Shown here: piece after piece, positions 2 to 31,540 of the stretch
Layout: every line of letters starts with the position of its first letter
How positions within the stretch are numbered: the stretch's first letter is position 1
NCBI RefSeq assembly: GCF_008806325.1
Contig: NZ_WACR01000001.1
Coordinates: 124,001 to 188,000 of the forward strand
Source of the DNA: Salibacter halophilus
Lineage (GTDB): Bacteria; Bacteroidota; Bacteroidia; Flavobacteriales_G; Salibacteraceae
Direction of reading: 5' to 3'
DNA length: 64,000 bases
Notes under the pieces: generated by a model
The model's input: only the letters and a program-made list of their open reading frames with translations
What the model was told of the DNA's origin: nothing
The model's database searches: none
Program-made: the position numbers and the translations under genes

Positions 2-991
2 CGAAACTGGGAGCCTGAAATATCTCTGATCACGTATGACAAAGAAAATCTCGACTTGCAAAAGATCGATCAGTTTTCCCATTTACCTGATTTAAATTCA
101 AATAAAGTCAGTTGGATAAATATTGATGGAATTCACGATGTGGATTTAATTAAACAAGTTGGAAGTAGATTCGATCTTCATTCACTTGTCCTGGAAGATG
201 TGGTAAACGCCAATCAACGCCCTAAAATTGAGGAGTTTGAGAATTATCTTTTTTTCACTGTTCGGGTAATTAGGGTCGAGGAAAAAGACACTAAAATTCA
301 CGAAGAACAAATCAGCTTTGTACTGGGCGATCACTTCGTTTTGTCATTCCAGGAACACAAAGGAGATATCTTTAGTTACGTTCGCGAGCGTCTCAAAAAC
401 AAACTGGGTCGGTTGAGATCTGCCGGATCTGACTATTTGGTTTACGCACTTCTCGATACTATCGTGGATCACTATTTTGTTGTAGAAGAAAATATTACGC
501 TCCGTATAGAAAACCATGAGTTAGATATTATTCAGAACCAGGGCAGTAAAAATTTGAGTCAAATGATCCTGGGACTCAAAGATCAGGTATTGATCATGAG
601 AAAAGCAGTTGTTCCATTGAGGGAAGCTGTTGCTAACTTGAAAAAAGGAACGTCATCGCTCATAGCTGATGAAACCATCAACTTCCTCAATGACCTGTAC
701 GATCACATCAATCACCAAATCGATGGTGTTGAAATGTCGCGAGACTCTATCACCAACCTCATCGAACTCAACAGTATTTACCAAAACAACAAGCTGAATG
801 AGATCATGAAAGTGCTCACCATGATTTCAACTATTTTTATTCCTCTGAGTTTTTTGGCCGGGCTGTACGGCATGAATTTCAACAATATGCCCGAACTGGA
901 ATACCGGTACGGCTATTACTGGGTTCTGACCGTGATGGGAATTTTGATAATTTTGATGATTCTATTTTTTAAACGCAAAAAGTGGTTGTGA
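2..991 (+). CDS. corA: CorA family Mg2+/divalent cation transporter (5' end outside window)
   Basis: Inner-membrane pentameric channel for Mg2+ and related divalent cations. The C-terminus carries the family signature YGMN (GMN codons near 869-877) between two membrane helices, one just before it (about 814-868) and one after it (about 913-975), then a basic KRKK tail in the cytoplasm. The N-terminal part is the usual soluble alpha/beta domain. A TTG at 56 could be read as a start, but the frame stays open to the left edge and the extra residues (PEISLITYD) fit the CorA N-terminus, so the gene is cut by the window edge. ybaB follows after 1 bp, so the two are probably cotranscribed. Confidence 0.93.
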   Translation, partial: RNWEPEISLITYDKENLDLQKIDQFSHLPDLNSNKVSWINIDGIHDVDLIKQVGSRFDLHSLVLEDVVNANQRPKIEEFENYLFFTVRVIRVEEKDTKIHEEQISFVLGDHFVLSFQEHKGDIFSYVRERLKNKLGRLRSAGSDYLVYALLDTIVDHYFVVEENITLRIENHELDIIQNQGSKNLSQMILGLKDQVLIMRKAVVPLREAVANLKKGTSSLIADETINFLNDLYDHINHQIDGVEMSRDSITNLIELNSIYQNNKLNEIMKVLTMISTIFIPLSFLAGLYGMNFNNMPELEYRYGYYWVLTVMGILIILMILFFKRKKWL

Positions 992-992
992 T

Positions 993-1304
993 ATGTTTGG
1001 GGATATGATGAATAAAATCCAGGAAGCTAAAAAGCAGGTTGAACAAACGAAAAGTGAACTGGATAACAAGCAGATTGAGGTTGAGAAAAACGGTGTAAAG
1101 GTTGTGATAACAGGAAATGGAGCTGTGAAAGACATCCAGGTACCAACAAATTTTCAACAACTCGAAAAAGAGGAACTCGAGGATTTAATCACTCTTGCAG
1201 TTAGCGAAGCTGTTTCCAAATCAATCGATTTAAAAGAATCTTCATTAAAAGAGGCTGCTCAGGGGATGCTACCAAACATGCCGGGTATGGATAATTTGTT
1301 CTAA
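993..1304 (+). CDS. ybaB: YbaB/EbfC family nucleoid-associated protein
   Basis: Small (103 aa) DNA-binding dimer of the YbaB/EbfC family. The N-terminal helix begins MFGDMMNKIQEAKK, followed by the family's beta-hairpin region (VEKNGVKVVITGNG) and a C-terminal tail rich in Met, Pro and Gly (MLPNMPGM). Length and order fit the family. The ATG lies 1 bp after the corA stop, suggesting one transcript. In other bacteria ybaB usually sits with dnaX-recR, which is not seen here. The function is taken from family knowledge. Confidence 0.9.
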   Translation: MFGDMMNKIQEAKKQVEQTKSELDNKQIEVEKNGVKVVITGNGAVKDIQVPTNFQQLEKEELEDLITLAVSEAVSKSIDLKESSLKEAAQGMLPNMPGMDNLF

Positions 1305-1378
1305 AGGTCGCGTTTTTATAAACCGGGGATTCGTTCAGTTTTCTTATATTCGGAATGCACTTAAACTGATGAAACCCC

Positions 1379-1804
1379 ATGAAGTTGTTCCTTTTTATCC
1401 TATCCATTAATTTGGCTATTTCCTTTGATGCGTGTTGTCAAACAAATATTCTTGTGTTAAAAGGTTCTGTCTATTACAAGAATAACAGGCTGGCCGATGT
1501 TGCCATGAATGTGTACTCAAAAGGTGAATTGATTGAGACAGTTAAAACCAATAGTCGCGGTAAGTTTGTTCTAAAATTAACCGGAAAAGACAATTACACG
1601 GTTGAATTCAAAAAAGAAGGATATTTCGACAGGCAAATGATTTTTAGCGCTCATCCCAAAAATGACTTTGGACGGGAACGATTTTCATTTGAAATTGACA
1701 TGTTCAAATTCAAAGAGGACGAAACACCGGAGGAAGTGACTAAAGTTCCGCTAATCGAATACATTCCGAACGAAAAGCAGTTCAAGTTCACACAAAATCT
1801 CTAG
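1379..1804 (+). CDS. Exported protein with carboxypeptidase-regulatory-like (Ig-like) domain
   Basis: A 141-aa protein with a hydrophobic signal peptide (about residues 1-20, ending near DACCQ). A beta-sandwich of the carboxypeptidase-regulatory-like type follows: residues 25-95 run through GSVYYKNNRLADVAMNVY, then a TNSRGKFVLKL turn and YTVEFKKEGY, the classic order of that fold. Such domains usually sit in the periplasm or outer membrane of Bacteroidota; no enzymatic role is implied. The gene converges with the Kazal-type gene, and both stop codons lie in the same CTAG at 1801-1804. The precise function is unknown. Confidence 0.7.
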   Translation: MKLFLFILSINLAISFDACCQTNILVLKGSVYYKNNRLADVAMNVYSKGELIETVKTNSRGKFVLKLTGKDNYTVEFKKEGYFDRQMIFSAHPKNDFGRERFSFEIDMFKFKEDETPEEVTKVPLIEYIPNEKQFKFTQNL

Positions 1805-2535
1805 CAATCTTTTCCTGATATCTTAAAGTTGTGTACCTCAGCTGGTGTTTGACTACTTCCTTTGAATACTGATAAGTTAAAAGAAACAGAATCATTTGGG
1901 ACGTACACATCGAGATAAGAGCACGTATCACACTGTAGTTTTACGGTTGAATACCACTGGAATCTTTCTCCTTCTTTTTTATCAAATCCTATCTCGATCG
2001 TTTCACCTTTACACGCTGAAAACTCAATTGAACCACAAACGCCATCACGGTATTGCTGAACTCCCGCAGCTTCGGCAACACATTCATTGCCGTAAGTATT
2101 TCCATCGCATCCGCAAACAGGTTTGTAATACTCCTGACAAGGTTTGTTTGAAATGCTATCGGGATTGACACAAGAGTCATCTGTTTGGCACCTACCGGTT
2201 GTCCAGTCTGAAATTCCATAAACGTAATAAGCCTCGCAGGCATTGCGGTAAGTGTTTCCATTACATCCGCAAACCGGAGAATCGTAATCTTTACATTCGA
2301 AGTTGTTATTTTTGAATTCTGCACTGTAACAGGGAGCAATAGTTGCGGGCTCAACTGCAGAGTCTTCTTTCTCACAAGATGTGAGAACATTGAGTAAAAT
2401 TATGCAAAGTACTGCAAGGAGAAAGCTCCCCATGACTTTAAGAGCTCGTTTTCTTACCGTTCTTGTTTCAATGTCCATCCAAAATATCCTTTTAACTTCA
2501 TCTTTAAGAGACAAGATATTCCAAAATGGTTGCAT
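1801..2535 (-). CDS. Lipoprotein with two Kazal-type protease-inhibitor-like domains
   Basis: A hydrophobic segment ends in a lipobox LTSC (Cys54 of the longest reading), then come two Cys-rich repeats, each with PVCGC(N/D)GNTY, a later Cys and a closing GxC, which is the Kazal/follistatin pattern. The C-terminal 80 residues hold further cysteine pairs and a beta-rich domain. Kazal domains inhibit serine proteases in animals; in bacteria the target is unknown. The start is uncertain: the ATG at 2535 gives a long basic leader, while ATGs at 2478 or 2433 give a more normal lipoprotein signal. It is the third gene of a sigma/anti-sigma operon, 12 bp after the anti-sigma stop, so it may be controlled by or act with that system. 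Confidence 0.75.
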   Translation of the reverse strand: MQPFWNILSLKDEVKRIFWMDIETRTVRKRALKVMGSFLLAVLCIILLNVLTSCEKEDSAVEPATIAPCYSAEFKNNNFECKDYDSPVCGCNGNTYRNACEAYYVYGISDWTTGRCQTDDSCVNPDSISNKPCQEYYKPVCGCDGNTYGNECVAEAAGVQQYRDGVCGSIEFSACKGETIEIGFDKKEGERFQWYSTVKLQCDTCSYLDVYVPNDSVSFNLSVFKGSSQTPAEVHNFKISGKDC

Positions 2536-2547
2536 TAATTGAGATGA

Positions 2548-3954
2548 TTACAAATTGAAGATTAGACCTGCTCTAACGGAATACCTTTGGGTGTTGTCCT
2601 CAAACGGGCTATCCTCGTTGAGATTTGTGAAATGAGAGAAACGTGGTTCTGAATATAGCATGATGCTTTTTGTGATCGAGTATCCAATTCCAACACCGGC
2701 ATTTAGGCTCATATTCGTGAGGTAGTTTCTGCTCGCTCTACTTTCTTTCTCTTCAATATTGATTTGTGACGAATTGTACTGAATATCTCGCGACTGATAA
2801 ATATCCACCGCTGCTCCTACTGATCCGTAAACTTCAAACCTGTTCTTTTTCACCCTGTAACGAACCTCTAATGGTACATTTACACTGCGCATTTGATAAT
2901 TGAGGAAGAGCGTATCTCTAACTCTGTTAGAAATAATTTGCTCCTGTTCAACAAAGTGATTTTGAAATTGACCATCAGGAGTTGGAGGTCCGGCTGGTAG
3001 TGGCATCATGCGCTTCACCGTAATAGAAACCTGTTCTTCTACATCAAAGTAATACCGCTGATTTCCTGAAAATTTACTGTACTCAACCCCAGATACAACC
3101 GAAAAATGATTCCCTAAATCCAGTACTGCCTGAGCTCCAAAATCAAATGCGCTGGTAATCGACTTTGTACTTTCAAACTTATCGATTGATCGGTAATCAG
3201 CTACATCATTGGAGAAGTTGTAATAATTGAACTCGGCAAAATCTATCACCTCAGGATTTTGCAAACTCATTCCTGCAAATACACCAACACGCATTTTTAG
3301 TTTGCGGTCAACATCTGGAAGTTCATCAAAAGTGTAGTGATTTGATTTACTCGATAACTCATTTGTATTGAAATTATCAGATTTAATTTCAGCCGCCAAC
3401 AACTCTATTTTTTCAAGCTCTGCGTAGTCTACAGTTTTGGGCTGTTTTACAGAATTATTGTTTGATTCCTTTGATTTGACCTTTGTCATTTCACGGTCAG
3501 GGCCAGATTCAGCTAACTTTTCGTCACTTCGTTCAGCTATATTGGATGCAAGCTGGCTATTGGTTGGGCTCTGATCGTTACGAATTTGAGAAATACCACT
3601 CTTATCAAATTCAGTTTTGTTATTTTGAATAGCGGGTTGATTGGCCTCTTGTGACTGTGATAAAAATTCTTTGGCCTGTTCAGAGCCAGATGATTTCTCT
3701 GAAACAACCTTTTTAGCATTGTTTTCTAACAGATCATCAGCAACATCATCGTAGTTGAAAACCATTGCAGTTGCAAAAGCCACTAATAAGGCAATTGAAG
3801 CCACCCATCTCAATGCCGATACATAATTCAATATGCGGTATGGTTTGCTGCTGTCGAGATCTCGCTCAATAGCGCCCCACACACCTTTTGACGGCTCTTC
3901 CCGAACATCACGTGCTGCCTTCCTAAATATGTCGTCAAACTCCCTATCCTGCAC
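2548..3954 (-). CDS. Putative dual-membrane-spanning anti-sigma factor with C-terminal outer-membrane beta-barrel
   Basis: The N-terminus is a short soluble segment (FDDIFRKAARDVREEP...GVWGAIERDL) of the kind found in Bacteroidota anti-sigma factors, followed by one membrane helix (WVASIALLVAFATAMVF), about 110 residues of polar Ser/Asn/Glu/Lys-rich linker, and a C-terminal porin-like beta-barrel of about 250 residues ending in alternating aromatic strands. I chose the GTG at 3954 because it overlaps the end of the upstream sigma gene by 11 bp; a TTG at 3993 is possible but overlaps by 50 bp. The layout matches the dual membrane-spanning anti-sigma (Dma) type reported in Bacteroides, which links the outer membrane to a cytoplasmic sigma factor. 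The role is inferred from order and topology. Confidence 0.7.
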   Translation of the reverse strand: MQDREFDDIFRKAARDVREEPSKGVWGAIERDLDSSKPYRILNYVSALRWVASIALLVAFATAMVFNYDDVADDLLENNAKKVVSEKSSGSEQAKEFLSQSQEANQPAIQNNKTEFDKSGISQIRNDQSPTNSQLASNIAERSDEKLAESGPDREMTKVKSKESNNNSVKQPKTVDYAELEKIELLAAEIKSDNFNTNELSSKSNHYTFDELPDVDRKLKMRVGVFAGMSLQNPEVIDFAEFNYYNFSNDVADYRSIDKFESTKSITSAFDFGAQAVLDLGNHFSVVSGVEYSKFSGNQRYYFDVEEQVSITVKRMMPLPAGPPTPDGQFQNHFVEQEQIISNRVRDTLFLNYQMRSVNVPLEVRYRVKKNRFEVYGSVGAAVDIYQSRDIQYNSSQINIEEKESRASRNYLTNMSLNAGVGIGYSITKSIMLYSEPRFSHFTNLNEDSPFEDNTQRYSVRAGLIFNL

Positions 3955-4528
3955 TTTGACCGTTTTGCGCAACTGAGCGTTTGTACAGCTCAATCACTTT
4001 AGTTTTCAATAATTTACGCGCTCTGGCTAATTGAGATTTACTGGTTCCGATTGAAATATCAAGCTTTTCAGCAATCTCTTTATGTGTAAATCCTTCAATA
4101 GCGTACAGACTAAAAATTTGTCTGTAGCCATCAGGTAAATTGTCTACCAACTTCATCAACTCCTCGTGTTCAAGACTTTGCATCGCATCATTCAAAACAG
4201 ACTTATCAACCGAAATCGACTCTATTTCTTCATCTGCGCACCTGTATCGCTTTTCTTTATCGATGTACCTGAGCGCTGTGTGAACGAGTATTCTGCGCAT
4301 CCAACCTTCAAAAGAACCTTCACCTTTGTAAGTTTTGATCGACTTAAAAACCTTGATGAACGATTCTTGCAAAATGTCCTCAGCAAGAGCCCTGTTTTGA
4401 GCGTAACGCATGCTTACACCAAACATTTTCGTTTTAAAAAGCTCATAAAGCTCCCTTTGACTCTTGCGATTTCCATCGCAACAGCCATCAATCAAACTAT
4501 TGAGTCTTTTGGTGTAAACTAATTCCAC
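3944..4528 (-). CDS. ECF-type sigma-70 family RNA polymerase sigma factor
   Basis: A 194-aa alternative sigma factor. Region 2 is clear (MRYAQNRALAEDILQESFIKVF...GSFEGWMRRI), and region 4 carries the helix-turn-helix (LPDGYRQIFSLYAIEGFTHKEIAEKLDISIGTSKSQLARARKLL, residues about 130-180). It starts at GTG 4528. Its 3' end overlaps the anti-sigma gene, the usual way such pairs are coupled so that the sigma factor is made with its inhibitor. The likely regulon includes its own operon with the Kazal lipoprotein; that is inference. Confidence 0.92.
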   Translation of the reverse strand: MELVYTKRLNSLIDGCCDGNRKSQRELYELFKTKMFGVSMRYAQNRALAEDILQESFIKVFKSIKTYKGEGSFEGWMRRILVHTALRYIDKEKRYRCADEEIESISVDKSVLNDAMQSLEHEELMKLVDNLPDGYRQIFSLYAIEGFTHKEIAEKLDISIGTSKSQLARARKLLKTKVIELYKRSVAQNGQSAG

Positions 4529-9703: not shown

Positions 9704-11533
9704 ATGGATATCAATCAGCTTAGAGAAAAGATTAACCTCTTCATTTACGACAGTAAAACAGAGGTTTTGCGGTGGCTGAATATTATCAGCTTGCTCGTTT
9801 CAATTAGCTCGGTTGGTGTCATCATTTACTACTACGGTTACAAGCACTCTCAGGAGGTTCTTGATTCGCTTTTCCTCTTCATGCAAGCCACATTTGCTTT
9901 TTACATTATTCGTTATGTGGTAAGAATCATCTATGATTTTGAACCAAAAAAATTCTTCAGGCGAACCTGGCTAGAAGGCCTGCTCATCACGATGCTCATC
10001 GTGGATGCAATCAGTTACAACTTTGCAGGTACACTGGTGATTCAGCAATTCTTTCAGAATATTGGTTTCCAAAACTTCACTGGCTTTTCCACCATCTTTC
10101 TCCAGGTTTATATTCTCATTATCGTAGCGATAGATCTTAAAAAAGAATCACAAATTCTCCCTAGAATTAAGATTAACCCACCAAAGCTCTTTGCCATTAC
10201 CTTCTTGATTTTAATGGCTATTGGAACATTTTTACTGATGTTGCCGGAGATGACTGTTGCTGAAGGAAGTATGTCATTTCTCAATGCTCTGTTCACCAGT
10301 ACCAGCGCCTCATGCGTCACCGGACTAATCGTGGTTGATACGGGAAGCTATTTCACCTTTAAAGGACAATTTGTTATTTTAATTCTCATGCAGCTTGGTG
10401 GGCTTAACATTGTTTCATTTGGTTCATTTACAGCTCTCTTTTCAAAGTTTGGTGTTGGAATGCGACACCAGGATTCTCTCGAAGATTTCATCTTTAAAAG
10501 TTCAGTTTTCAGCAGCAAAGGATTGCTCGGTAAAATCATAATCGGAACTCTGGTTTTTGAATTAGTAGGCACCTCAATAATTTTGTGGTTGATGGAAAGC
10601 GAATTCCCTGATCAAGCTCTCGGAGATAATCTTTTCTTTTCACTTTTCCATTCTGTAAGTGCGTTCAATAATGCAGGATTCTCCACTATAAGCGATGGTT
10701 TCTTCAACGAGTTTTATCGATATTTCTTTATCCTACATCTGGTAGTAGCAATTTTGATCTTCTTTGGAGCGCTCGGATTTGATACGCTGATCGATTTATT
10801 CAATGTAAAGTCGATGCGGGAAAGATTGAAGTACCCGTGGAAAAGACCAAAAGTTGGAACAATGGTCAACATATACACGACTATTACTTTAGTCGTTTTG
10901 GGTACAATAGCTTTCCTGATTTTTGAGAAGCAAAACAGCTTTGCCAATTACGGTACTGTAGAATCCATCATCACAGGGCTTTTTCAATCAATAACACTCA
11001 GAACCGCAGGTTTCAACACTCTCGACTTTAGTCAGATGGCTATTCCCACACTGCTCATTGCAATGATTTTCATGTTCATTGGTGGTGCTTCCAGCTCTAC
11101 TGCTGGCGGAATAAAAACTTCTACATTCTCTATTCTTATCTTATCAGCTTATTCTGTTATTCGAAGGAAAAAACACATCGAAGTCTTCAAGAGAACAATT
11201 CCACAGGATATTGTTTTCAGAGCATTCAGCACACTTATGTTTGCTTTGACTATCATACTTATTGGAATTATAGCACTATCTATAAGTGAGCAGGAATTGA
11301 TCGCGAGTGAACAATTCAGGCTCATAGACATTATTTTTGAGGAAGTCAGCGCATTTGCAACCGTAGGCGTTTCCACGGGAGTCACTTCTCACCTGAGCGA
11401 ATTGGGAAAATCAATTATTATACTTTCCATGTTTGTTGGAAGGGTGGGAACATTAACCGTTGTTTTCGCGTTGAGCAGTTCTATTGTCAGTACAAATTAT
11501 AAATATCCTGATGAGCACATGCTTATCGGTTAA
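9704..11533 (+). CDS. TrkH/KtrB family potassium uptake protein
   Basis: A membrane pore subunit for K+ (or Na+/K+) uptake, 609 aa. Four pore-loop repeats with the selectivity glycine are readable: SASCVTGLIVV, SAFNNAGFSTI, TLRTAGFNTL and SAFATVGVSTG. Several extra membrane helices precede the first repeat (residues about 20-165), as in many Bacteroidota members, making it longer than a typical KtrB. The regulatory TrkA/KtrA partner is not in this window. It sits 3 bp after the sugar kinase and 5 bp before the methyltransferase, suggesting one transcript. Confidence 0.92.
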   Translation: MDINQLREKINLFIYDSKTEVLRWLNIISLLVSISSVGVIIYYYGYKHSQEVLDSLFLFMQATFAFYIIRYVVRIIYDFEPKKFFRRTWLEGLLITMLIVDAISYNFAGTLVIQQFFQNIGFQNFTGFSTIFLQVYILIIVAIDLKKESQILPRIKINPPKLFAITFLILMAIGTFLLMLPEMTVAEGSMSFLNALFTSTSASCVTGLIVVDTGSYFTFKGQFVILILMQLGGLNIVSFGSFTALFSKFGVGMRHQDSLEDFIFKSSVFSSKGLLGKIIIGTLVFELVGTSIILWLMESEFPDQALGDNLFFSLFHSVSAFNNAGFSTISDGFFNEFYRYFFILHLVVAILIFFGALGFDTLIDLFNVKSMRERLKYPWKRPKVGTMVNIYTTITLVVLGTIAFLIFEKQNSFANYGTVESIITGLFQSITLRTAGFNTLDFSQMAIPTLLIAMIFMFIGGASSSTAGGIKTSTFSILILSAYSVIRRKKHIEVFKRTIPQDIVFRAFSTLMFALTIILIGIIALSISEQELIASEQFRLIDIIFEEVSAFATVGVSTGVTSHLSELGKSIIILSMFVGRVGTLTVVFALSSSIVSTNYKYPDEHMLIG

Positions 11534-11538
11534 AGCTT

Positions 11539-12264
11539 ATGTCCAAGAACGTTACTCCATACGATAAAGAAGCTACGAAGAAAGAACAGGTAGCTGAAAT
11601 GTTTGATAATATCGCGGGAAACTACGATTTCCTCAACCACTTTCTCTCACTGGGGATTGACATATTGTGGCGCAAAAAAGCGATCAAATTATTGAAACCT
11701 GTGAAACCCAAAACGGTTCTGGATGTCGCTACAGGAACAGGTGATTTTGCTGTTCAGGCTTTGGATTTAAAACCCGAAAAAGTAACGGGGGTCGATATCT
11801 CCAACAAAATGCTTGATGTTGGACGGGTAAAAATGAAAAAGAAAAATGTGGAAGACATTGTTGAGATGAAGTATGGAGACAGCGAAAACCTCCCATTTGA
11901 AGATGAATCCTACGATGCCATCACAGTTGCTTTTGGTGTGAGAAACTTCGAAAACCTTGAAAAAGGGCTGGCTGAGATGCATCGCGTTCTGACCAAAAAA
12001 GGAAAAACGGTTATCATCGAGTTTTCAAAACCTCAGCACTTCCCCATCAAGCAGCTTTACAACTTTTACTTTAAGTCTATTTTGCCAAACCTGGGGAAAT
12101 GGGTTTCTAAAGATCAACGTGCTTATACCTACCTTCCAGAATCAGTTGAAGCATTCCCTTATGGACAAAAGTTTCTCGATGTAATGGAAAGTGTGGGCTA
12201 CACAAATACTAAGTGCATCCCGCTTACGTTTGGTATTGCAAGCATTTACACAGGTGAGAAATAA
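11539..12264 (+). CDS. ubiE: Demethylmenaquinone methyltransferase (UbiE/MenG)
   Basis: A SAM-dependent C-methyltransferase for the last step of menaquinone synthesis. Motif I is VLDVATGTGDFAVQAL, and the family signatures YDFLNHFLSLGIDILWRKKA (N-terminal) and VAFGVRNFENLEKGLAEMHRVL are both present. At 241 aa it has the normal length. The ATG at 11539 lies 5 bp after trkH. porT follows at once, an order I know from other Bacteroidota. Because the group lives mainly on menaquinone, menG activity is the likely one. Confidence 0.94.
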   Translation: MSKNVTPYDKEATKKEQVAEMFDNIAGNYDFLNHFLSLGIDILWRKKAIKLLKPVKPKTVLDVATGTGDFAVQALDLKPEKVTGVDISNKMLDVGRVKMKKKNVEDIVEMKYGDSENLPFEDESYDAITVAFGVRNFENLEKGLAEMHRVLTKKGKTVIIEFSKPQHFPIKQLYNFYFKSILPNLGKWVSKDQRAYTYLPESVEAFPYGQKFLDVMESVGYTNTKCIPLTFGIASIYTGEK

Positions 12265-12275
12265 ATCGGAAAAGG

Positions 12276-12995
12276 TTGATAGTTAGACTTTTGAAATACG
12301 GTATCCTTTTGTTTATTGCGTTCATTTTCAGCGAACTGGCACAAGCACAGCTGGAAAGACCAAAAAACCTCCGTTTTTTTGATGAAAAGAAAGTTCACTT
12401 TGGTTTTACACTGGGAGTCAACACAATGGGCTACAACCTCAACACTGACCTCACGAAAAACGACTCACTCGTTTCAGTTGAAACAAACAGGCAAAGCGGA
12501 TTTAACATCGGGATTGTGAGTTCATGGCACATTACCCGTAAATTCAGTTTGCGTTTTTTACCTACGCTCGCATTTGGACAGCGAAATCTCGATTACCTCT
12601 TCCAGGGTGAGTCAGATAATTCACTAGAAACAAAGCAGGTTGAATCGACTTACCTTCAGTTTCCTTTGAATTTCAAATATCGGTCAGAGCGCCTCAATAA
12701 TTTCGCTGCTTATGTTGTTGGTGGAGCCAATTACAGCCTCGACCTCGCCTCTCAGTTTGATACCGATAATAAAGTGCCAGTATCAGAACAAGTTATTCGG
12801 CTCAAAAGACACAACGTCATGTACGAATTTGGAGTTGGATTCGATTTTTTCCTCGAGTACTTCAAATTCTCACCTGAAATCAAAGTTTCACAGGGAATCA
12901 ACGGAGTCTTGATTCAGGACAATACACTGTGGAGCGATCCGATTGAAAAACTTACACCTCGGATGGTTTCCATCTCATTTCACTTCGAGGGCTAA
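12276..12995 (+). CDS. porT: PorT-family type IX secretion outer-membrane beta-barrel protein
   Basis: A 239-aa outer-membrane barrel with a signal peptide (ILLFIAFIFSELAQAQ, cleavage near residue 25), an N-terminal KKVHFGFTLGVNTMGYNL strand and regularly alternating strands to the C-terminus. PorT is needed for type IX secretion, the system that exports gliding and surface proteins. Identity rests on this N-terminal pattern and on the ubiE-porT-rRNA methyltransferase neighbourhood. Start codons are TTG at 12276 or TTG at 12291; no ATG is suitable. The 3' end overlaps the convergent methyltransferase by 4 bp. Confidence 0.82.
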   Translation: MIVRLLKYGILLFIAFIFSELAQAQLERPKNLRFFDEKKVHFGFTLGVNTMGYNLNTDLTKNDSLVSVETNRQSGFNIGIVSSWHITRKFSLRFLPTLAFGQRNLDYLFQGESDNSLETKQVESTYLQFPLNFKYRSERLNNFAAYVVGGANYSLDLASQFDTDNKVPVSEQVIRLKRHNVMYEFGVGFDFFLEYFKFSPEIKVSQGINGVLIQDNTLWSDPIEKLTPRMVSISFHFEG

Positions 12996-13714
12996 ACCCA
13001 GTAACTCAAAATAATTCCAGTCGCCACAGCAACATTCAACGACTCAGCTCCTCCCCTTTTCTCAATGGTTACCGAGAAATCGAGTAGTTTTTGAATTTCA
13101 GGACTTATCCCGTGAGATTCGCTTCCCATGACCAAAACTGCTTTTTGAGGAATTGTATCGCGATCGAGCTTTTTACCGCTCATCTCAGCACCAACAATTG
13201 AGTATCCTTTAGCTTTTAATTTCTCAATTTTTTCGGTCAGATCCACTCTAGCTAACCGAGTTCGGAATATCGAGCCCATTGATGATTGAATGACTTTGGG
13301 ATTGAATTCGTCAACAGTTTCTTCAGAGCACAAAACCGTTTCAATTCCAAACCAATCGGCAATACGCAGAATCGTACCCAAATTACCGGGATCATTGATA
13401 CCCTCAACAGCTAATATTTTATCTGATGAAATTTTGAATGATTTATCTGGAAATTTGACCAGTGCCATGATTCCGGGCGGATTTTTCATCGATGAAATTT
13501 GCGACAACTCTTTCTGTGAAACTTCCTGTACAGCAAAGGAACTGGGAGTTGGCGGAGTCTGGCTCTGACCGTGATAAACTGCTTCAACTTCAAAGTCGCT
13601 TTCTATCGCTTCCTGAACCAGTTTTTCGCCTTCAACAAGGAATTTTCCATGTTCATTCCTGAACTTTTTTTGGCGCAGAGACCGTAAAATTTTTAATTCC
13701 CTTTTTGAAAGCAT
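12992..13714 (-). CDS. SPOUT-class RNA 2'-O-methyltransferase (TrmH/SpoU family)
   Basis: A trefoil-knot RNA methyltransferase that methylates ribose 2'-OH, probably of rRNA. Seen: an N-terminal substrate-binding part (KFLVEGEKLVQEAI), motif 1 EGINDPGNLGTILRIADWFG, motif 2 LVMGSESHGIS and motif 3 IEKRGGAESLNVAVATGIILSYW with the conserved Asn. At 240 aa it matches the family. It is oriented against its neighbours, between porT and the TamA-like gene. The exact target nucleotide cannot be told from the sequence. Confidence 0.9.
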   Translation of the reverse strand: MLSKRELKILRSLRQKKFRNEHGKFLVEGEKLVQEAIESDFEVEAVYHGQSQTPPTPSSFAVQEVSQKELSQISSMKNPPGIMALVKFPDKSFKISSDKILAVEGINDPGNLGTILRIADWFGIETVLCSEETVDEFNPKVIQSSMGSIFRTRLARVDLTEKIEKLKAKGYSIVGAEMSGKKLDRDTIPQKAVLVMGSESHGISPEIQKLLDFSVTIEKRGGAESLNVAVATGIILSYWV

Positions 13715-13733
13715 TTCACCACAGTTTAATCAT

Positions 13734-13741
13734 TAGTTTTG
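13734..13741 (+). promoter_or_regulatory. TAnnTTTG promoter box for the TamA-like gene
   Basis: TAGTTTTG ends 12 bp before the ATG at 13754. A TTTG at 13704-13707 is 26 bp upstream, somewhat longer than the usual spacing, so only the -7 box is convincing. Confidence 0.45.
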
Positions 13742-13753
13742 CAAATCTATCAC

Positions 13754-16228
13754 ATGGGCTTGAATTACTACGTAAAATATACGCTTTTGGCGATTGCTCT
13801 AACAATTGCGTTAGGAGCCTGCAACAGCACCAAGTATGTCCCTCAAGACAAGTATTTGCTCGTTAAAAACGAACTTAAAAACAATGCTAAAACTGTTGAC
13901 GAGGATGAGATTAAGGCCGTAATCAAGCAAAAGCCAAACAAAAAAATATTTGAACTTTTCCGTTTTAACCTGTTCGTTTACAACCTTTTTGACTCTGCCA
14001 AAGTCGCTAAGCGAAATGAAAGGAAACGCAAAAGACTGGAAAAACGAAACGATAGAAGAGTTGAAAAAGGAAAAGAGCCAAAAGAGTTCAATCCAGTTCT
14101 ATCTCATCGGATCAAGTATAAGATAGGAAATGCTCCAGTTGTATTCGATTCTATTTTCATGAATAAATCAGTAACTGATTTGAGCCTTTTCCTTAAAAAT
14201 AACGGGTATTTCAACAATCGCGTATCAGCTAAACCGGTTAGAGATACGAATAGCAGGAAAGTTACGGTTCAATATGAAATTAAAGCAGGAAAGCCTTATA
14301 AAATCAAGGAGGTTGCTTACTCGATAGATGACAAGGATTTGTTACCTGCTATTAAAAAGGCGACAAAAGAAACTTCATTGAGAAACGGTGCTATTTTTAG
14401 TCTGGAAGAAATTGATGACGAGAGACAGCGACTCACAAAATCGATGAGAGATCAAGGCTACTATTACTTTAATCAAAATTTTGTTACCTATGAAGTCGAC
14501 TCTACAATAGGTAACCACCGCGTTTACATCAGGCAAAAAGTCAATAACCCCGTCACAGAAGAAAGACTCCCATCAGGAGAAGATACGCTAGTAGAAAAAA
14601 TGCATCAAAAATACCGTGTACAAAATGTGTATATTAACACTAACTACTCCACAGAGTTTCAATCAGTAACAAATGACACGGTTAAGTATGACGATCTCTA
14701 CTTCGTCAACACCAAAAAAAGCAATTACAAACCAAGAGTGCTAGCCGATGCGATATACATTGCGCCAAATGAATTTTACTCACAATCCAGGCAGGAATAT
14801 ACTTACGACCGTCTTTCATCTCTTAATAACTTCAGGTTTATCAACATTCAGTTTGAAGAAGCCGGTAATGATACAGCTCTTTTAAACTGCTACATCAACC
14901 TCACCCCTATTCTGCGACAATCTGTTTCAGCTGAAGCTGAAGGAACCAATACTGGTGGTAACCTCGGTGTCTCAGGAAATCTAGGTTACACGAACAGGAA
15001 CCTTTTTAAAGGAGCCGAAATGTTTCGGGTTAGGCTCAGAGGTGGTGTTGAAGCACAACAAACGAACAACCCTGTTGAAGGAGATCAGGAAACGCAAGGA
15101 TCAAATCTAGAACGAATTTCACCTTTCAACACAACAGAATACGGTATTGAAACATCACTCTACCTACCAGATCTACTTCTACCAAAAAATGTTTACCGTT
15201 ACGAATTACCTAATTACAAGAATCCTAAAACCAATGTCAACCTCAACTTCAATTACCAAAGACGCCCCGACTTTACGCGTAACTTGATCAATACCTCTTA
15301 CGCCTATTTTTGGTCTGGAAACACCAAAAACAGCAATGATTACGCTTTTTATCCTCTTAACTTATCGATTATCCGAATTGATAAACGCGATTATTTTGAT
15401 CAGCGATTGCGAGATCTTCAAAACCCGTTTCTACTAAACACCTACAGTGACCACCTGATTGCAGGTAGTAAATTTAATTACACCTGGACCAATCAAAACC
15501 TTCGCAAAAATCAAAACGCTATTTGGAATCGTGTAACGGTTGAAACAGCCGGTAATTTACTCGCCCAGAGCAGCGATTGGCTCGGACTAAATAAAACAAA
15601 CGGAGAATACTACGAGCTCTTTGGTATTCGCTACGCACAGTTTGTCAAAGTAGCCAACGATTTTAGAGTCTACAACAACATCACAAAAAACAGCAAAATG
15701 GCTTATCGGTTCCATGCCGGAGTTGGTGTGCCTTACGGTAACAGAAATGTACTGCCTTACGACAAAAGCTTTTTTGCAGGAGGAGCAAACGATATAAGAG
15801 CATGGACAGCTCGTTCCCTTGGACCCGGTTCAACTCCAGATTCTGTAACAGCAGGCATTGATCAGGTTGGAGATGTTCTCCTAGAAGCAAATGTTGAATA
15901 CAGAGCCCAATTGACTGATATGTTTGAAATTGCCTTCTTTGCCGATATGGGAAATATTTGGGTACTGGAAAGAGATCAACAGGTGGAATCATCAATTTTT
16001 AGATTTGACCGTTTTTATGAAGAAATCGCGGTCGGAACCGGAATTGGTTTTCGTTTTGATTTCAGCTTCCTGCTACTCCGCTTAGATTGGGGTGTGCAAA
16101 TGCGAGATCCCGCTCTGGCTGAAGGAGAAAGATGGATTTTTCAATCCAAAGACCTATACAATGAAGCCAATCAAAACAACTACAATATGCGGAGTACATT
16201 TAACTTAGGAATTGGGTATCCTTTTTAG
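13754..16228 (+). CDS. BamA/TamA (Omp85) family outer-membrane lipoprotein
   Basis: A large (about 824 aa) outer-membrane assembly-type protein. A lipobox LGACN ends the signal peptide (MGLNYYVKYTLLAIALTI...), then come POTRA-like repeats (residues about 130-400, e.g. KPYKIKEVAYSIDDKDL) and a C-terminal 16-strand Omp85 barrel with the conserved FFAGGANDIRAW segment, ending in GIGYPF. Bacteroidota have several such lipid-anchored TamA-like proteins; substrates are unknown. I start at the ATG 13754 rather than the TTG 13739 because it gives a standard lipoprotein signal. It is transcribed divergently from the RNA methyltransferase. Confidence 0.9.
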   Translation: MGLNYYVKYTLLAIALTIALGACNSTKYVPQDKYLLVKNELKNNAKTVDEDEIKAVIKQKPNKKIFELFRFNLFVYNLFDSAKVAKRNERKRKRLEKRNDRRVEKGKEPKEFNPVLSHRIKYKIGNAPVVFDSIFMNKSVTDLSLFLKNNGYFNNRVSAKPVRDTNSRKVTVQYEIKAGKPYKIKEVAYSIDDKDLLPAIKKATKETSLRNGAIFSLEEIDDERQRLTKSMRDQGYYYFNQNFVTYEVDSTIGNHRVYIRQKVNNPVTEERLPSGEDTLVEKMHQKYRVQNVYINTNYSTEFQSVTNDTVKYDDLYFVNTKKSNYKPRVLADAIYIAPNEFYSQSRQEYTYDRLSSLNNFRFINIQFEEAGNDTALLNCYINLTPILRQSVSAEAEGTNTGGNLGVSGNLGYTNRNLFKGAEMFRVRLRGGVEAQQTNNPVEGDQETQGSNLERISPFNTTEYGIETSLYLPDLLLPKNVYRYELPNYKNPKTNVNLNFNYQRRPDFTRNLINTSYAYFWSGNTKNSNDYAFYPLNLSIIRIDKRDYFDQRLRDLQNPFLLNTYSDHLIAGSKFNYTWTNQNLRKNQNAIWNRVTVETAGNLLAQSSDWLGLNKTNGEYYELFGIRYAQFVKVANDFRVYNNITKNSKMAYRFHAGVGVPYGNRNVLPYDKSFFAGGANDIRAWTARSLGPGSTPDSVTAGIDQVGDVLLEANVEYRAQLTDMFEIAFFADMGNIWVLERDQQVESSIFRFDRFYEEIAVGTGIGFRFDFSFLLLRLDWGVQMRDPALAEGERWIFQSKDLYNEANQNNYNMRSTFNLGIGYPF

Positions 16229-26694: not shown

Positions 26695-27094
26695 GGGGCC
26701 GACTGGTTTTGACAGCAAGACGAATCGGTTATGTAAGCAAGCCTGGCGTTGAAGAAAAGCCAGTCAAAACGTTCTTCACACTTTTAAATGGCGAAAATAA
26801 TTACGCTCTCGCTGCGTAATCTAGTCCAAGACTGATTACCTTCATCACACTCCAAAGAGGAGGTGACGAGATGTCCCGGGAAAGAGTTCTCCCAACACTT
26901 TTTCCAGTCGGGGCACCAATAAGTTTGGGATAGAAAGTAGAATGCCCGGTTTTGCTTTCGAAACTCAATTCGGGATAAGCTGTAGATAGGTTGTTTGTCA
27001 CCGGCCTACAGACGAAAATTAATGACAAACTAAGCTTGTAGAAGGCATAGCTATTCCTTGTTTGGACGAGGGTTCGAATCCCTCCGGCTCCACA
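26695..27094 (+). ncRNA. ssrA: Transfer-messenger RNA (tmRNA)
   Basis: One-piece tmRNA that rescues stalled ribosomes. The 5' end GGGGCCGACTGGTTTTGACA and the 3' end GGTTCGAATCCCTCCGGCTCCA are typical; GGGGCCG pairs with CGGCTCC to make the 7-bp acceptor stem, and the T-loop GGTTCGAATCC is intact. The CCA end is not encoded. The tag frame GGC...TAA at 26790-26819 gives GENNYALAA, the usual Bacteroidota tag. Its last bases, from 27080 on, are part of a 53-bp repeat that recurs at 31488, so the 3' end was an integration site. smpB is not in the window. Confidence 0.96.
26790..26819 (+). other. tmRNA proteolysis tag reading frame (GENNYALAA)
   Basis: The resume codon GGC is followed by codons giving GENNYALAA and TAA. 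With the alanine charged on tmRNA the tag is A-GENNYALAA, ending in the LAA signal for ClpXP. Confidence 0.92.
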
Positions 27095-27132
27095 ACTCAA
27101 CCTCCATCGTCATGATGTGAGGTTTTTTGTTT
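27080..27132 (+). repeat. 53-bp direct repeat (attL-like) at the ssrA 3' end
   Basis: A perfect 53-bp match to 31488-31540. It covers the 3' half of the tmRNA T-arm/acceptor, the tail and the whole terminator hairpin. The period is 4408 bp. This is the classic footprint of site-specific integration into a tmRNA gene. Confidence 0.95.
27099..27132 (+). terminator. ssrA terminator
   Basis: AACCTC-CATC pairs with GATG-t-GAGGTT (one bulged T), followed by a T-rich tract. A second copy lies at 31507-31540. Confidence 0.8.
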
Positions 27133-27293
27133 TCAAACTCTATTCTCAAAACAGTAAAAGACAATCGATAATAATGTTATTTAAAAAGTATTTAGATAAC
27201 ATGGTATTAAATTAAGGTCTCGTGTAAGTGATTAAAATAGCATTCAAGTAAATAAAAATAGTGAATGGTCAACTTAAACTGAATAGACACATC

Positions 27294-30200
27294 CTATTCC
27301 AATTCTTCGAGGGAGGTGGCTTCGACCAGTAGATACAAATAAATCAACATTACCTGCGCTCCACATTCGGTTAACCGCGCTTGCCAGTTCTTCATTGTAT
27401 TAATGTTTTCGGCAATAGTGTCCCCCATTGTTTCACCTTCTTCAGTGGGGGACAACGCGGGAACAACGGAAGCTATGGTTTGAACAAAATCCAACTTGTC
27501 AGGATCTTCGGAATCTTTGTACTTGTCGAACACGGTCATTAAGTCTTCCACAAGGTTTGAATGTGTATTGACAGTATCCTCAATCAAGGTGTTTAGCCAG
27601 CTTTCGAGAACACTTGTGTCTGATTCGGGATTGGCATTGCCCGAGAGTTCAAAAAGTTGACTCAGTACTCCTGTACTTATGGTGAGCGTGGAATAACGGT
27701 CGAGCAGGGATTGGGCAAACTCAATCTCTTCGGTTCGCTGAAACAGCCTTATATTGGCTTGTTTCAATGCTTCTGCGGGAACAGGGACGGGTATCCAGCG
27801 GTAGGAAGGTATTTCTTCCAGCTTTCCCTTTTCGAGATCGAACATGCTGAATTTGTAGGCTTGATAAGCGGGAACTTCACCAAGCTGTGATACAACAATC
27901 CAATATTCATCGAACTGATGATCCAATACGGTTCGTTTAAAACTCAAATATGGGCAGGAGCCAACGGATTCGAACAGGATGTTTATCGCCAATTCCAATG
28001 CCGTAAAAGTATCGAGCAGGTTAATGCAATCAGCATGGATGATAACGGTTCTTGGATGTGCTTCCGTGTGGGCAGAAAAGTCAACAGAGTTCAACGCTTC
28101 GTCTGTTTTCTTTTGGCAAGTTTTGTTCAGTCGCTTTAGAAAATCACGTTCAATTTTTTCGAAGGTTTTCGGCCCTTCTTTCGCCAATTTTTTGGGTAGC
28201 TGTTGCATGGGGCAAACGAAGTGCTTCCAGCCATAGGCAAGTGCTGTGATGGCTTGCTTTTCTTTATTTTCCAGTTCTCGAAGTGTTTGTGGGTTGCTAT
28301 ACTTTTCGAAGTGTTTGGTAAAGGCTGCTTGATAGACATTTAGTGCATCGAAGGCTTGTATAAGATTAACCAGCGACATCCGATGCAGTTGCTTTTGTTT
28401 TTCGATTGATATACCTACACGGTCGAATATTGTACGCAGGCTTTGCCAATTAAAAGCGTTTAACGATGAGAAGTAGTTTTTATGCGCATCCTTAAAATCG
28501 CGAAACCTATCGGTAAGCAGCGAGGTTTCTGCTGTGTCGTTTTGGTCTTCGCGTTTGTGGTCTTTGCTGGAATCTTCTGACACTCTTCCGGTAGGGTCTG
28601 AAATGGGTTTTGGAAAGAGTATTTCGTATTCTATTTGATAGGTGTTGTAGGTTATGGCTTCGGTGGCAAATTGGACGATTGGTGTACGACTTCGGTTCTT
28701 TTTGAAATGTTCCTCCAATACACTGACCATCTGCTGCAGATAGCTCGAAAATGCACTCCTGATTTTAAGGGTGTGTGCAACAAATTCCTCCCATGTTTCT
28801 GGACGTTTTTCGTAAACCAGCAGATTAAGAATGAGCGAGTTGATTGAGGTTAGCCAGTAAATAGGGTTGTTCTGTTGTTTGATTTGTGCGCTGGAATCAT
28901 CGAAGTCTGATTCGATGAAATTTGTTTTGTGGCCGTATCCTTTTGCTCCGTGACTATCGAGGTAGGGAAGTGCATAGCGGAGAATGTCGATTATTTCCAG
29001 TTTTCGCTGATGGGCTATGTTTTCACCGGAATCAAAATCTTTAAAAATATCGAGCAGAAAATGAGCCGTTACACTTGTTTCTGATCTTTCGAGATAGGCC
29101 ACGTTTAGTTCCGGGCCAATGCGCTGTAACAGGTTGGGTTCAGCATCAAAAGCAATGATTTTCCCTTCTTCTGAAATTGCGTGTAAACCGAATAATGCTC
29201 TTGAAGCTGCTCCAAGTGATCTTTGATTAACAGCAGCTATGATGGCTTCCCGGTTCAGATGAATTTCTTTATTGGGTGCTAATCGGGCTGTCCAAAAAAG
29301 CAGCTCGCCAAAAGAACTCGCCTCTTGATCGGTGTCGAGGTTTGAAGCGGGAATGCCTGCATTGACTAACCATTGTTGTGCTCGGTTGAAAATACGCTCT
29401 TGCGAAATTTGATGCTCTTCCAGTTTTTGGATTACGGTAGTCCTCGCGTTTTGGAAGTTCTCGTTTTCTGGGAAAAGTGGCATATCGTTCAACATACCCG
29501 TAAAGTCGAGATGGGTGCGAACGTGGAGCAGAAACGAATCCTGTTCATATAGTTCATCCCATAAGGCTTGATGGTCTTCGATTAGTGATTTTACATCTAT
29601 CCAAATGAGCGCGTTTAGCACGTTAACACACCCTGTGTATGTATTGCAATTGATGGTAGGCAGGATGTTGATGATTCGTTCACGGGTACTTGTGTGATAC
29701 CTAAAAACGGAAACGAGGAAAATATAGAGGTCTGGTTCAGCTACTAAGCTGGTACATTGCTCCGCTGTTGCGGCTAACTCCTGTTTGTCAAGATGAAGCA
29801 ACTCGGATATGATACCGGATCGGATGGGGTGTAAACCGGTTAAGGTGGTTTCTTCATCGGAATATCGCAAAAGGTATTCTCGCTCCAGTGTTTTAACCGC
29901 CAGCCGTAATTCCGTAACGATACTGGAGGCAGTAATTTTTGATGCCTGAATACCAGCTCCCATTGCATCGGCAAACCCTACAATCTTGAGCAGGGGAATT
30001 AACCGGGGTTGTTCTTTCTCGATGCGGTCTAATTGTGATTGGATGCGTTCGCGCAGGGTTTCCCCTTGTGTGGTTAAGTAGGTGAACTCTAACAGCGGGC
30101 CTTGCTCTCCAAACTTTATCCAGGCTTCTGCGAATCCGGTGTGGTGTTTGTCAACGGCACGCTGTGTTAACCTTTCATAGATGCTCTCTGCCTCTGTTTT

Positions 30201-31376
30201 GTGAAGCTCCAGCGCAACGTCTCCAAACTGAAAATGCACCCCTTTGTTTGGGGTCTTGTTCCAGTCTTCTTCACGAATTGTTATGAGAAACTTAAAGGCA
30301 TTCGAGCCAACAAAATCTCTCAACAATTCGACCCAATTGGTATTGCCGGGTTTTACATCTATGTAAATGAGTAGCGGGAAATCCAATGAACTGGAAATTG
30401 CGCGCAGTGCGGCAATTTGTTCTGTGGTTTCCTTCCAGCTTAGAGGCATTACTTCGTAGGTTATGCCCCTGTAGTGTTGTCTGATAAATCGGTATGCAAG
30501 CGTGCTTTTTCCCTGTCCTGACGCTCCGTGTATGATGGCAACATGCTGATGCTGAAATGCCTCGTAAACCTCATCCATTTTGGTTTCGCGAGACACATCG
30601 AGACCAGCCAAAATGTGCTTATATGTGGCTCCTACACCTTTGTGAAATCCATTTTCGAGTTCAGGCATTGAAAGGGTGTCTATCTCAACATCCTGAACGG
30701 GTCGAATTGTCCGGTGCAGATGCTGGTGAAAATCTTCGCGTTCAGCTACAAACTTTCCAATGGAATTGAGTTGGTTGAGCAGCGATTCTTGCGAAATGGT
30801 TCCTCCTTTTTCAGCAATTCTCGCAACCCACTGATGCAAAAGGTCTATTCCCGTGTTCGGATTCAATGCCAATGCTCGTTCCTGAATCAGGCGAATGACG
30901 TCATCGATATAGGTTTCTTCATCTACCGAAATGAACGAAGTGTTTTCCTTTAGCGGAATTAGTTCAGGTGAATTGATTTCGAGTTCGGCAAGGCGGGCAG
31001 TGAATTCGTTCTCGGAAGTTGAAGGAGAAAAGAGGTCGGTTAGCCCTTTGCTGATCTTACCAAAGCACACAACTTTTAATTGAGGCGATTCACCTGATTC
31101 ATAAACTTTAGCTGCGCGCAGAAGGCTTTTAGTTATATCAGCGAGGTATAGCATGTCGTTGGTGCTCTTTACCTGTACAAGCTGTTGCAGCTTGTTGTCC
31201 AAATTGCTAACGTCCAAGTCTTCCAACCCTTCGGGTTCGTAAACTAGTCCGCTGTCTAGATTTGAAAGTATTTCCCGAACAGTAAATAGTGTTTGCAAGC
31301 GAAATCCTCGCATTGCTCTTATTGCTCCTGTATTACTATCAGTTAAGTTCTTACTCACAGCCAAAAGATACTTCAT
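27294..31376 (-). CDS. Large STAND-type P-loop NTPase with N-terminal nuclease-like (DUF4297/Cap4-like) domain; putative anti-phage defence protein
   Basis: A 1360-aa protein. Residues 1-120 look like a PD-(D/E)xK nuclease of the DUF4297/Cap4 type: GFRLQTLFTVREIL, then E47-P-E49-G-x-E-D, and Q68-V-K70-S as the QxK motif. An ATPase module follows: Walker A GASGQGKST at 284-292, Walker B LLIYID at 335-340, and FLITIREEDW (TxR-like sensor) at 363-371. About 900 further residues are helical and hydrophilic, as in the sensor part of Avs-like STAND proteins. Family knowledge says such proteins sense a phage product, assemble and cut DNA; that role here is inference. It is the only cargo of an island in ssrA, typical for defence genes. 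Confidence 0.75.
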   Translation of the reverse strand: MKYLLAVSKNLTDSNTGAIRAMRGFRLQTLFTVREILSNLDSGLVYEPEGLEDLDVSNLDNKLQQLVQVKSTNDMLYLADITKSLLRAAKVYESGESPQLKVVCFGKISKGLTDLFSPSTSENEFTARLAELEINSPELIPLKENTSFISVDEETYIDDVIRLIQERALALNPNTGIDLLHQWVARIAEKGGTISQESLLNQLNSIGKFVAEREDFHQHLHRTIRPVQDVEIDTLSMPELENGFHKGVGATYKHILAGLDVSRETKMDEVYEAFQHQHVAIIHGASGQGKSTLAYRFIRQHYRGITYEVMPLSWKETTEQIAALRAISSSLDFPLLIYIDVKPGNTNWVELLRDFVGSNAFKFLITIREEDWNKTPNKGVHFQFGDVALELHKTEAESIYERLTQRAVDKHHTGFAEAWIKFGEQGPLLEFTYLTTQGETLRERIQSQLDRIEKEQPRLIPLLKIVGFADAMGAGIQASKITASSIVTELRLAVKTLEREYLLRYSDEETTLTGLHPIRSGIISELLHLDKQELAATAEQCTSLVAEPDLYIFLVSVFRYHTSTRERIINILPTINCNTYTGCVNVLNALIWIDVKSLIEDHQALWDELYEQDSFLLHVRTHLDFTGMLNDMPLFPENENFQNARTTVIQKLEEHQISQERIFNRAQQWLVNAGIPASNLDTDQEASSFGELLFWTARLAPNKEIHLNREAIIAAVNQRSLGAASRALFGLHAISEEGKIIAFDAEPNLLQRIGPELNVAYLERSETSVTAHFLLDIFKDFDSGENIAHQRKLEIIDILRYALPYLDSHGAKGYGHKTNFIESDFDDSSAQIKQQNNPIYWLTSINSLILNLLVYEKRPETWEEFVAHTLKIRSAFSSYLQQMVSVLEEHFKKNRSRTPIVQFATEAITYNTYQIEYEILFPKPISDPTGRVSEDSSKDHKREDQNDTAETSLLTDRFRDFKDAHKNYFSSLNAFNWQSLRTIFDRVGISIEKQKQLHRMSLVNLIQAFDALNVYQAAFTKHFEKYSNPQTLRELENKEKQAITALAYGWKHFVCPMQQLPKKLAKEGPKTFEKIERDFLKRLNKTCQKKTDEALNSVDFSAHTEAHPRTVIIHADCINLLDTFTALELAINILFESVGSCPYLSFKRTVLDHQFDEYWIVVSQLGEVPAYQAYKFSMFDLEKGKLEEIPSYRWIPVPVPAEALKQANIRLFQRTEEIEFAQSLLDRYSTLTISTGVLSQLFELSGNANPESDTSVLESWLNTLIEDTVNTHSNLVEDLMTVFDKYKDSEDPDKLDFVQTIASVVPALSPTEEGETMGDTIAENINTMKNWQARLTECGAQVMLIYLYLLVEATSLEELE

Positions 31377-31487
31377 ATATGCTCCATATCAAAGCAGAGT
31401 ATAATTCAAGCGCTGAATAAGTTGTTATGATATCAGCACTGCACAATTTTCCAATCCCTTCTTTACCAATGTTTGCATTAAAACACA

Positions 31488-31540
31488 CCCTCCGGCTCCA
31501 CAACTCAACCTCCATCGTCATGATGTGAGGTTTTTTGTTT
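31488..31540 (+). repeat. 53-bp direct repeat (attR-like) with duplicate ssrA terminator
   Basis: A perfect copy of 27080-27132 with no tmRNA body in front of it. It includes a second copy of the terminator hairpin (31507-31540) and marks the right end of the island. Confidence 0.95.

Follow-up and report, generated by a model that had tools for sequence, protein, structure and literature searches.

Within the window analysed here, a 64,000-nucleotide stretch of the Salibacter halophilus genome (contig NZ_WACR01000001.1, positions 124,001 to 188,000; coordinates below are those of the window), a unit lies at the 3′ end of the tmRNA gene ssrA, bounded by two direct repeats (attL, 27080-27132; attR, 31488-31540) and devoid of any recombinase. 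The features of the locus are as follows:

26695-27093, plus strand: ssrA (tmRNA; ARAGORN, Rfam RF00023), tag peptide GENNYALAA, the 3′ end being the attachment site
27080-27132, plus strand: ssrA-proximal 53-bp repeat, attL-like, comprising the last 14 nt of ssrA and the terminator
27099-27128, plus strand: proximal ssrA intrinsic terminator, a stem-loop (27099-27124) followed by a U-run (−11.9 kcal/mol, z −3.66)
27133-27293, no strand: left non-coding arm, 161 bp
27294-31376, minus strand: sole cargo gene, 1360 aa, with a predicted Cap4/LmuA-like nuclease, nSTAND NTPase and long C-terminal region
30504-30527, minus strand: Walker A motif GASGQGKS of the nSTAND NTPase, residues 284-291
31167-31232, minus strand: predicted PD-(D/E)xK nuclease residues E49, E52, D53 ... 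Q68-V-K70, from aligned homologues
31377-31487, no strand: right non-coding arm, 111 bp, on the promoter side of the cargo gene
31488-31540, plus strand: distal 53-bp repeat, attR-like, comprising a truncated ssrA end and the terminator

The tmRNA was placed at 26695-27093 or 27095 by ARAGORN and Rfam (E 4.5e-59), and the repeat therefore spans the last 14 nt of ssrA together with its stem-loop terminator. The two copies are identical at 53 of 53 positions (55 of 56 when extended), which rules out chance as the source of the repeat. The ssrA gene beside the proximal copy is intact; the distal copy has only a shortened end of the tmRNA, followed by an identical terminator, and folding returned the same stem-loop and U-run for both (z about −3.5). 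Between the repeats there is a single long ORF, which begins with ATG, and the two arms contain neither a recombinase remnant nor arm-type short repeats above chance. These results bear out the initial annotation, which had described perfect 53-bp repeats over the tmRNA 3′ end and terminator, with one gene between them and no integrase. Excision would release the unit as a 4408-bp circle, with the predicted junction ...GCATTAAAACACA + 53-bp repeat + TCAAACTCTATTC...; neither such a circle nor an empty ssrA site was seen in the assembly.

No relative of the cargo gene was found in any of the 59 related genomes searched, two of the same genus included. In both same-genus genomes ssrA is directly followed by what we read as a ubiE-like methyltransferase gene. 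The genes past 31540 in Salibacter halophilus (LytTR/kinase) look like ordinary genes of the host, with relatives in both same-genus genomes; the downstream kinase was dropped as a synteny marker because its family is too abundant. We then surveyed 100 genomes of the class, taken from among BLAST hits whose contigs were usable. In each, as much as 20 kb past ssrA (some stretches are cut short) was searched for another copy of the 3′ core of the gene. Such a copy, at least 14 bp long (two 13-bp matches, L162 and L233, were left out of the count), was present in 16 of the 100, always in the same orientation, and the controls, which were 14-mers from eight different offsets and the core in reversed and in inverted form, gave no second copy. 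A tyrosine integrase is intact in five of the 16 units (L144, L158, L165, L174 and L177), broken in one (L168) and not detectable in ten (L145, L227, L140, L180, L190, L186, L196, L193, L220 and L226), although distant integrases may have escaped the profile, which rests on six proteins, five of which came from these very islands; L140, L180 and L190 are the least certain of the ten. Related genomes do have other cargo between the ssrA repeats, with or without an integrase, a comparison that the initial annotation had proposed for sister strains.

Where the integrase is intact it sits at one end of the unit, and these five units span 7.7-17.9 kb. A profile match identifies a type IIG restriction enzyme among the cargo of L144, and L158 and L177 have genes that we read as type I restriction-like. 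The island of L174 (genome G071) adds a second nuclease-type cargo at the ssrA site, an 895-aa protein (minus strand, 11080-13767) that over its first ~100 residues resembles a PADLOC endonuclease effector (E 2.9e-14). Among the units with no detectable integrase, L145 (genome G318, 165-4475) is a close parallel to that of Salibacter halophilus, being 4.31 kb long and carrying a TmtA-like gene (E 6e-142) and a TIR/AlbA gene; it also has an extra GAGGGTTCGAATCCC T-arm fragment ~110 bp past ssrA. L227 is a 2.9-kb unit with a response regulator and a kinase-like ATPase. Three further units (L193, L220 and L226) measure only ~170 bp and consist of a duplicated ssrA 3′ end within the first ~350 bases past the gene, with repeats of 54 and 56 bp reaching beyond ssrA in L193 and L220, and of 17 bp in L226. 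L186 and L193 share a hairpin-like sequence, CCACTGCACGTTAG...GCGCAGCTAAC, just before the second core, to which L186 adds a small GIY-YIG-like ORF; insertion of an integron-like cassette was considered for these two and rejected, because it leaves the 17-54-bp repeat unexplained.

The repeat of Salibacter halophilus begins at the very point of the tmRNA 3′ arm at which those of its relatives' integrase-bearing islands begin. This argues against an origin by local duplication or by homology-directed capture of a gene beside ssrA, as does a tyrosine-integrase island of Riemerella anatipestifer, experimentally proven, which also has a 53-bp repeat (PMC6764341). Such an origin would accord with the absence of a recombinase gene and with a repeat that exceeds the usual length at ssrA, but we regard it as highly improbable. 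The identity of the two terminators is nevertheless odd. The intact integrase-bearing islands have repeats of 14-15 bp and two terminators that differ, as against 53 bp here, and identity running past ssrA was found in the Salibacter unit, L193 and L220. Strand exchange within the core does not copy the terminator, and so a donor terminator, tandem elements or homogenisation is needed: either the element brought the lineage's own terminator, from a close relative, or two elements lie in tandem, or the copies have been homogenised. In the tandem case, two elements of the same family would have inserted in succession and the distal one decayed, making both terminators element-derived. This would account for identity that continues beyond the core through the terminator. 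The contrast with the intact islands, whose terminators differ, speaks for it, and tandem arrangements of comparable integrase-less islands are known from streptococci (PMC7563491). However, the third core expected beyond 31540 does not occur in the genome at up to two mismatches, and the LytTR/kinase genes found there look host-type, which leaves tandem accretion very unlikely.

A different possibility, raised in the initial annotation, is that the unit is a live, minimal satellite-like element made of att sites and one gene, which borrows its integrase in trans from prophages or islands that use the ssrA site. Phages or islands that use this site do exist. In one genome of the same family (G009), ssrA sits at a contig end, and another contig, bearing what we read as phage-tail-like genes, terminates in the same ssrA 3′ arm (C12/C13 ends, L044 and L045), and there is probably a prophage at this site. 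A viral contig (L129) likewise has a tyrosine recombinase, recognised by motif, beside an ssrA arm; the exact 33-bp core of the Salibacter repeat is absent from the viral contigs searched. The continued identity of the two att copies over 53 bp and the recurrence of integrase-less ssrA units with differing defence-like cargo (L145, perhaps L227) also speak for a satellite. Against it, the genome itself offers no partner, the arms lack arm-type binding repeats, and, as noted above, the assembly shows neither circle nor empty site. Across the whole 3.12-Mb genome the repeat core has no third copy at up to two mismatches, no serine recombinase was found, and the integrase of ssrA island L158 returned no match when used as a query. 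PF00589 matches occur at six places. Two are proteins of 297-303 aa, the size of XerC/XerD, and one is a 368-aa integrase adjoining a gene that we read as mnmE-like. A pair of recombinases lies on the 9.5-kb contig C15, and the last match is a short frame (152 aa from its start codon) adjoining a reverse-transcriptase-like gene. Taken together, the PF00589, serine recombinase and L158 searches identify no integrase fitting the ssrA site in the assembled genome, though one could reside on an unassembled plasmid or phage. The search for an integrase of this repeat has thus come back empty, nothing shows mobilisation in trans, and we consider a live satellite unlikely.

Several of these recombinase loci have features of their own. 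The mnmE-like gene adjoins an island (Salibacter genome G000, contig C3, 120-129 kb; L040, 2122-11346) which combines the tyrosine integrase with a type I restriction methylase-like gene. Contig C15 (L039) holds the two recombinases in tandem, a DUF1016-like nuclease gene and a replication-like gene, and looks like a mobile element or plasmid. The reverse-transcriptase-like neighbour of the short recombinase frame (C3, 306 kb; L041, 6301-8347) is possibly a defence gene of the DRT type.

With its sequence alone as query, the cargo protein gave sub-threshold Pfam matches, and single-sequence scans of genome contigs and viral contigs found no relatives. It has about 50 homologues, most of them about 1300-1430 aa long and about 23-29% identical over their length, which are patchily distributed in Bacteroidota, Cyanobacteria, Firmicutes, Proteobacteria and others; an alignment-based scan found 48 relatives in genome contigs and none in viral contigs. 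Domains were assigned from profile matches of the homologues, whose N-terminal segments match nSTAND_NTPase5 (29 of 29), LmuA (17 of 29) and Cap4_nuclease (9 of 29), the Salibacter protein itself being among the 17 that match LmuA (E 1e-6). Among the aligned homologues, E49, E52, D53, Q68 and K70 of the predicted nuclease site are invariant (V69 varies), as is the Walker A lysine K290. An AlphaFold model of residues 1-560 (mean pLDDT 86) placed Avs3, Avs4 and Avs5 at the top of the Foldseek matches, with HerA-DUF4297, LmuA and Cap4 below; whole-model TM-scores were low (0.25-0.33), so the structural match holds for separate domains only. No Pfam repeat-domain match was obtained for the C-terminal 800 residues.

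Profiles, invariant residues and the AlphaFold/Foldseek comparison all point to an N-terminal effector nuclease and a STAND NTPase within one large protein, an architecture characteristic of Avs. The N-terminal Cap4/DUF4297-type nuclease joined to a STAND NTPase also recalls Lamassu LmuA and CBASS Cap4, although the Salibacter cargo is a single chain, unlike Lamassu. It departs from Avs in its nSTAND_NTPase5-type NTPase, in a C-terminal region with no recognised domain, and in going unrecognised by the curated family models: the Avs models of PADLOC and NCBIfam do not match the cargo protein at E≤1, nor do any of them match the 29 N-terminal homologue segments. The pooled neighbours of the homologues include matches to PtuA, reverse transcriptase, KAP NTPase, AbiEii, restriction and integrase families, in a pool that also took in three proteins of contig C15 of the Salibacter genome, two of them recombinases. 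A tyrosine integrase lies near a homologue in four of 56 loci, and direct repeats flanking homologues are mostly absent or unrelated. In one of the four (L108), the homologue belongs to a 12.5-kb island at tRNA-Ala whose far end has an integrase and which is flanked by a 15-bp repeat of the tRNA. Another homologue follows a PtuAB-like pair that splits a glycosyltransferase gene in a gut 'bacteriophage' scaffold (L065, MT836892.1, 1454-5037) which looks like a polysaccharide locus. From the homologue domains, the predicted fold and the defence-type neighbours we infer a role in defence, and together they strongly suggest an anti-phage function. The cargo is most likely a single-protein Avs-like defence system, in which, by analogy, the C-terminal region would recognise a phage component, the STAND NTPase would oligomerise with ATP and the N-terminal Cap4/LmuA-type nuclease would cut DNA. 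It belongs to a little-described nuclease-STAND family, widely but patchily spread and distinct from the families of the Avs models.

The initial annotation was right to describe an integrated ssrA unit with a single defence-like gene and no recombinase. It had also called this arrangement unusual, and here we differ, since att-flanked islands without an integrase form a named class, the CIMEs (PMC7563491), and such units recur at ssrA. CIMEs are 1.2-13 kb long with cargo, the gene-less microCIMEs 130-220 bp, and those described are streptococcal, occupying protein genes or tRNA-Lys beside ICEs/IMEs (PMC7563491). Like them, the 4.4-kb Salibacter unit retains two att direct repeats at a conserved gene whose 3′ end is a known integration site, and contains no recombination, mobilisation, conjugation or transfer genes; the ~170-bp units of its relatives fit the size of microCIMEs and could be the scars of emptied islands. 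Unlike CIMEs, it is solitary, lies at ssrA in a member of the Bacteroidota, carries a defence-like gene and has no resident parent element. As to descent from an ICE or IME, the unit holds no parental fragment, and a homologue of its gene does occur in the integrase-bearing tRNA-Ala island mentioned above. Nor is it an autonomous tyrosine-integrase island, as no integrase of its own adjoins the att sites. Islands at the tmRNA site of E. coli constitute hotspot 9 and belong to the defence-island repertoire (PMC10121019), and those at ssrA in Dehalococcoides use serine recombinases (PMC3146451), as opposed to the tyrosine type of the relatives' ssrA islands. Both share with our unit the ssrA 3′ end as target, a direct repeat at the far boundary and variable cargo, but they mostly carry an integrase or integration module and the Salibacter unit does not. 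The Riemerella 10K genomic island, a 10-kb element at tRNA-Arg with a working tyrosine integrase and experimentally demonstrated excision, has a 53-bp repeat that, as printed, finishes with a hairpin and T-run resembling a terminator (PMC6764341). It is like the Salibacter unit in its Bacteroidota host and in having, at an RNA gene, a perfect 53-bp repeat that includes such a hairpin, and differs in target, size and the presence of an integrase.

On balance, we think it probable that the unit is a CIME-like remnant or passenger of an ssrA-specific tyrosine-integrase island, with a cargo that is likely an Avs-like defence system. The repeat longer than the 14-15 bp of integrase-bearing islands and the lack of any integrase trace in the unit count against this reading. 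We infer that an integrase-bearing island would have recombined its attP with the ssrA attB, the ssrA 3′ end being restored by the island's own copy, and that either the integrase portion subsequently disappeared or a derivative without it was captured, leaving two att sites and one gene. Were an ssrA-specific integrase to arrive, it could act on these att sites in trans; alternatively, an ssrA-specific element could integrate adjacent to the unit and both leave together (accretion-mobilisation). A more general idea, which we put forward only tentatively, is that the ssrA 3′ end of Bacteroidota recurrently hosts integrase-less, single-system defence cassettes (the Salibacter unit, L145 and perhaps L227), moved by tyrosine integrases borrowed from islands or phages and leaving ~170-bp att-to-att scars when emptied.

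The structure of the Salibacter unit is of an already known, CIME-like kind, and it shows in compact form a defence gene that occupies the attachment site of an RNA gene without a recombinase. The interest lies in the repeated occurrence at ssrA of defence-like units that lack an integrase, and in the little-described nuclease-STAND protein. In this group, our survey suggests, units lacking an integrase are more numerous than those with one over the 20 kb next to ssrA. If such units can move, island finders that require an integrase would overlook them, and single defence genes would be able to spread by means of borrowed integrases.
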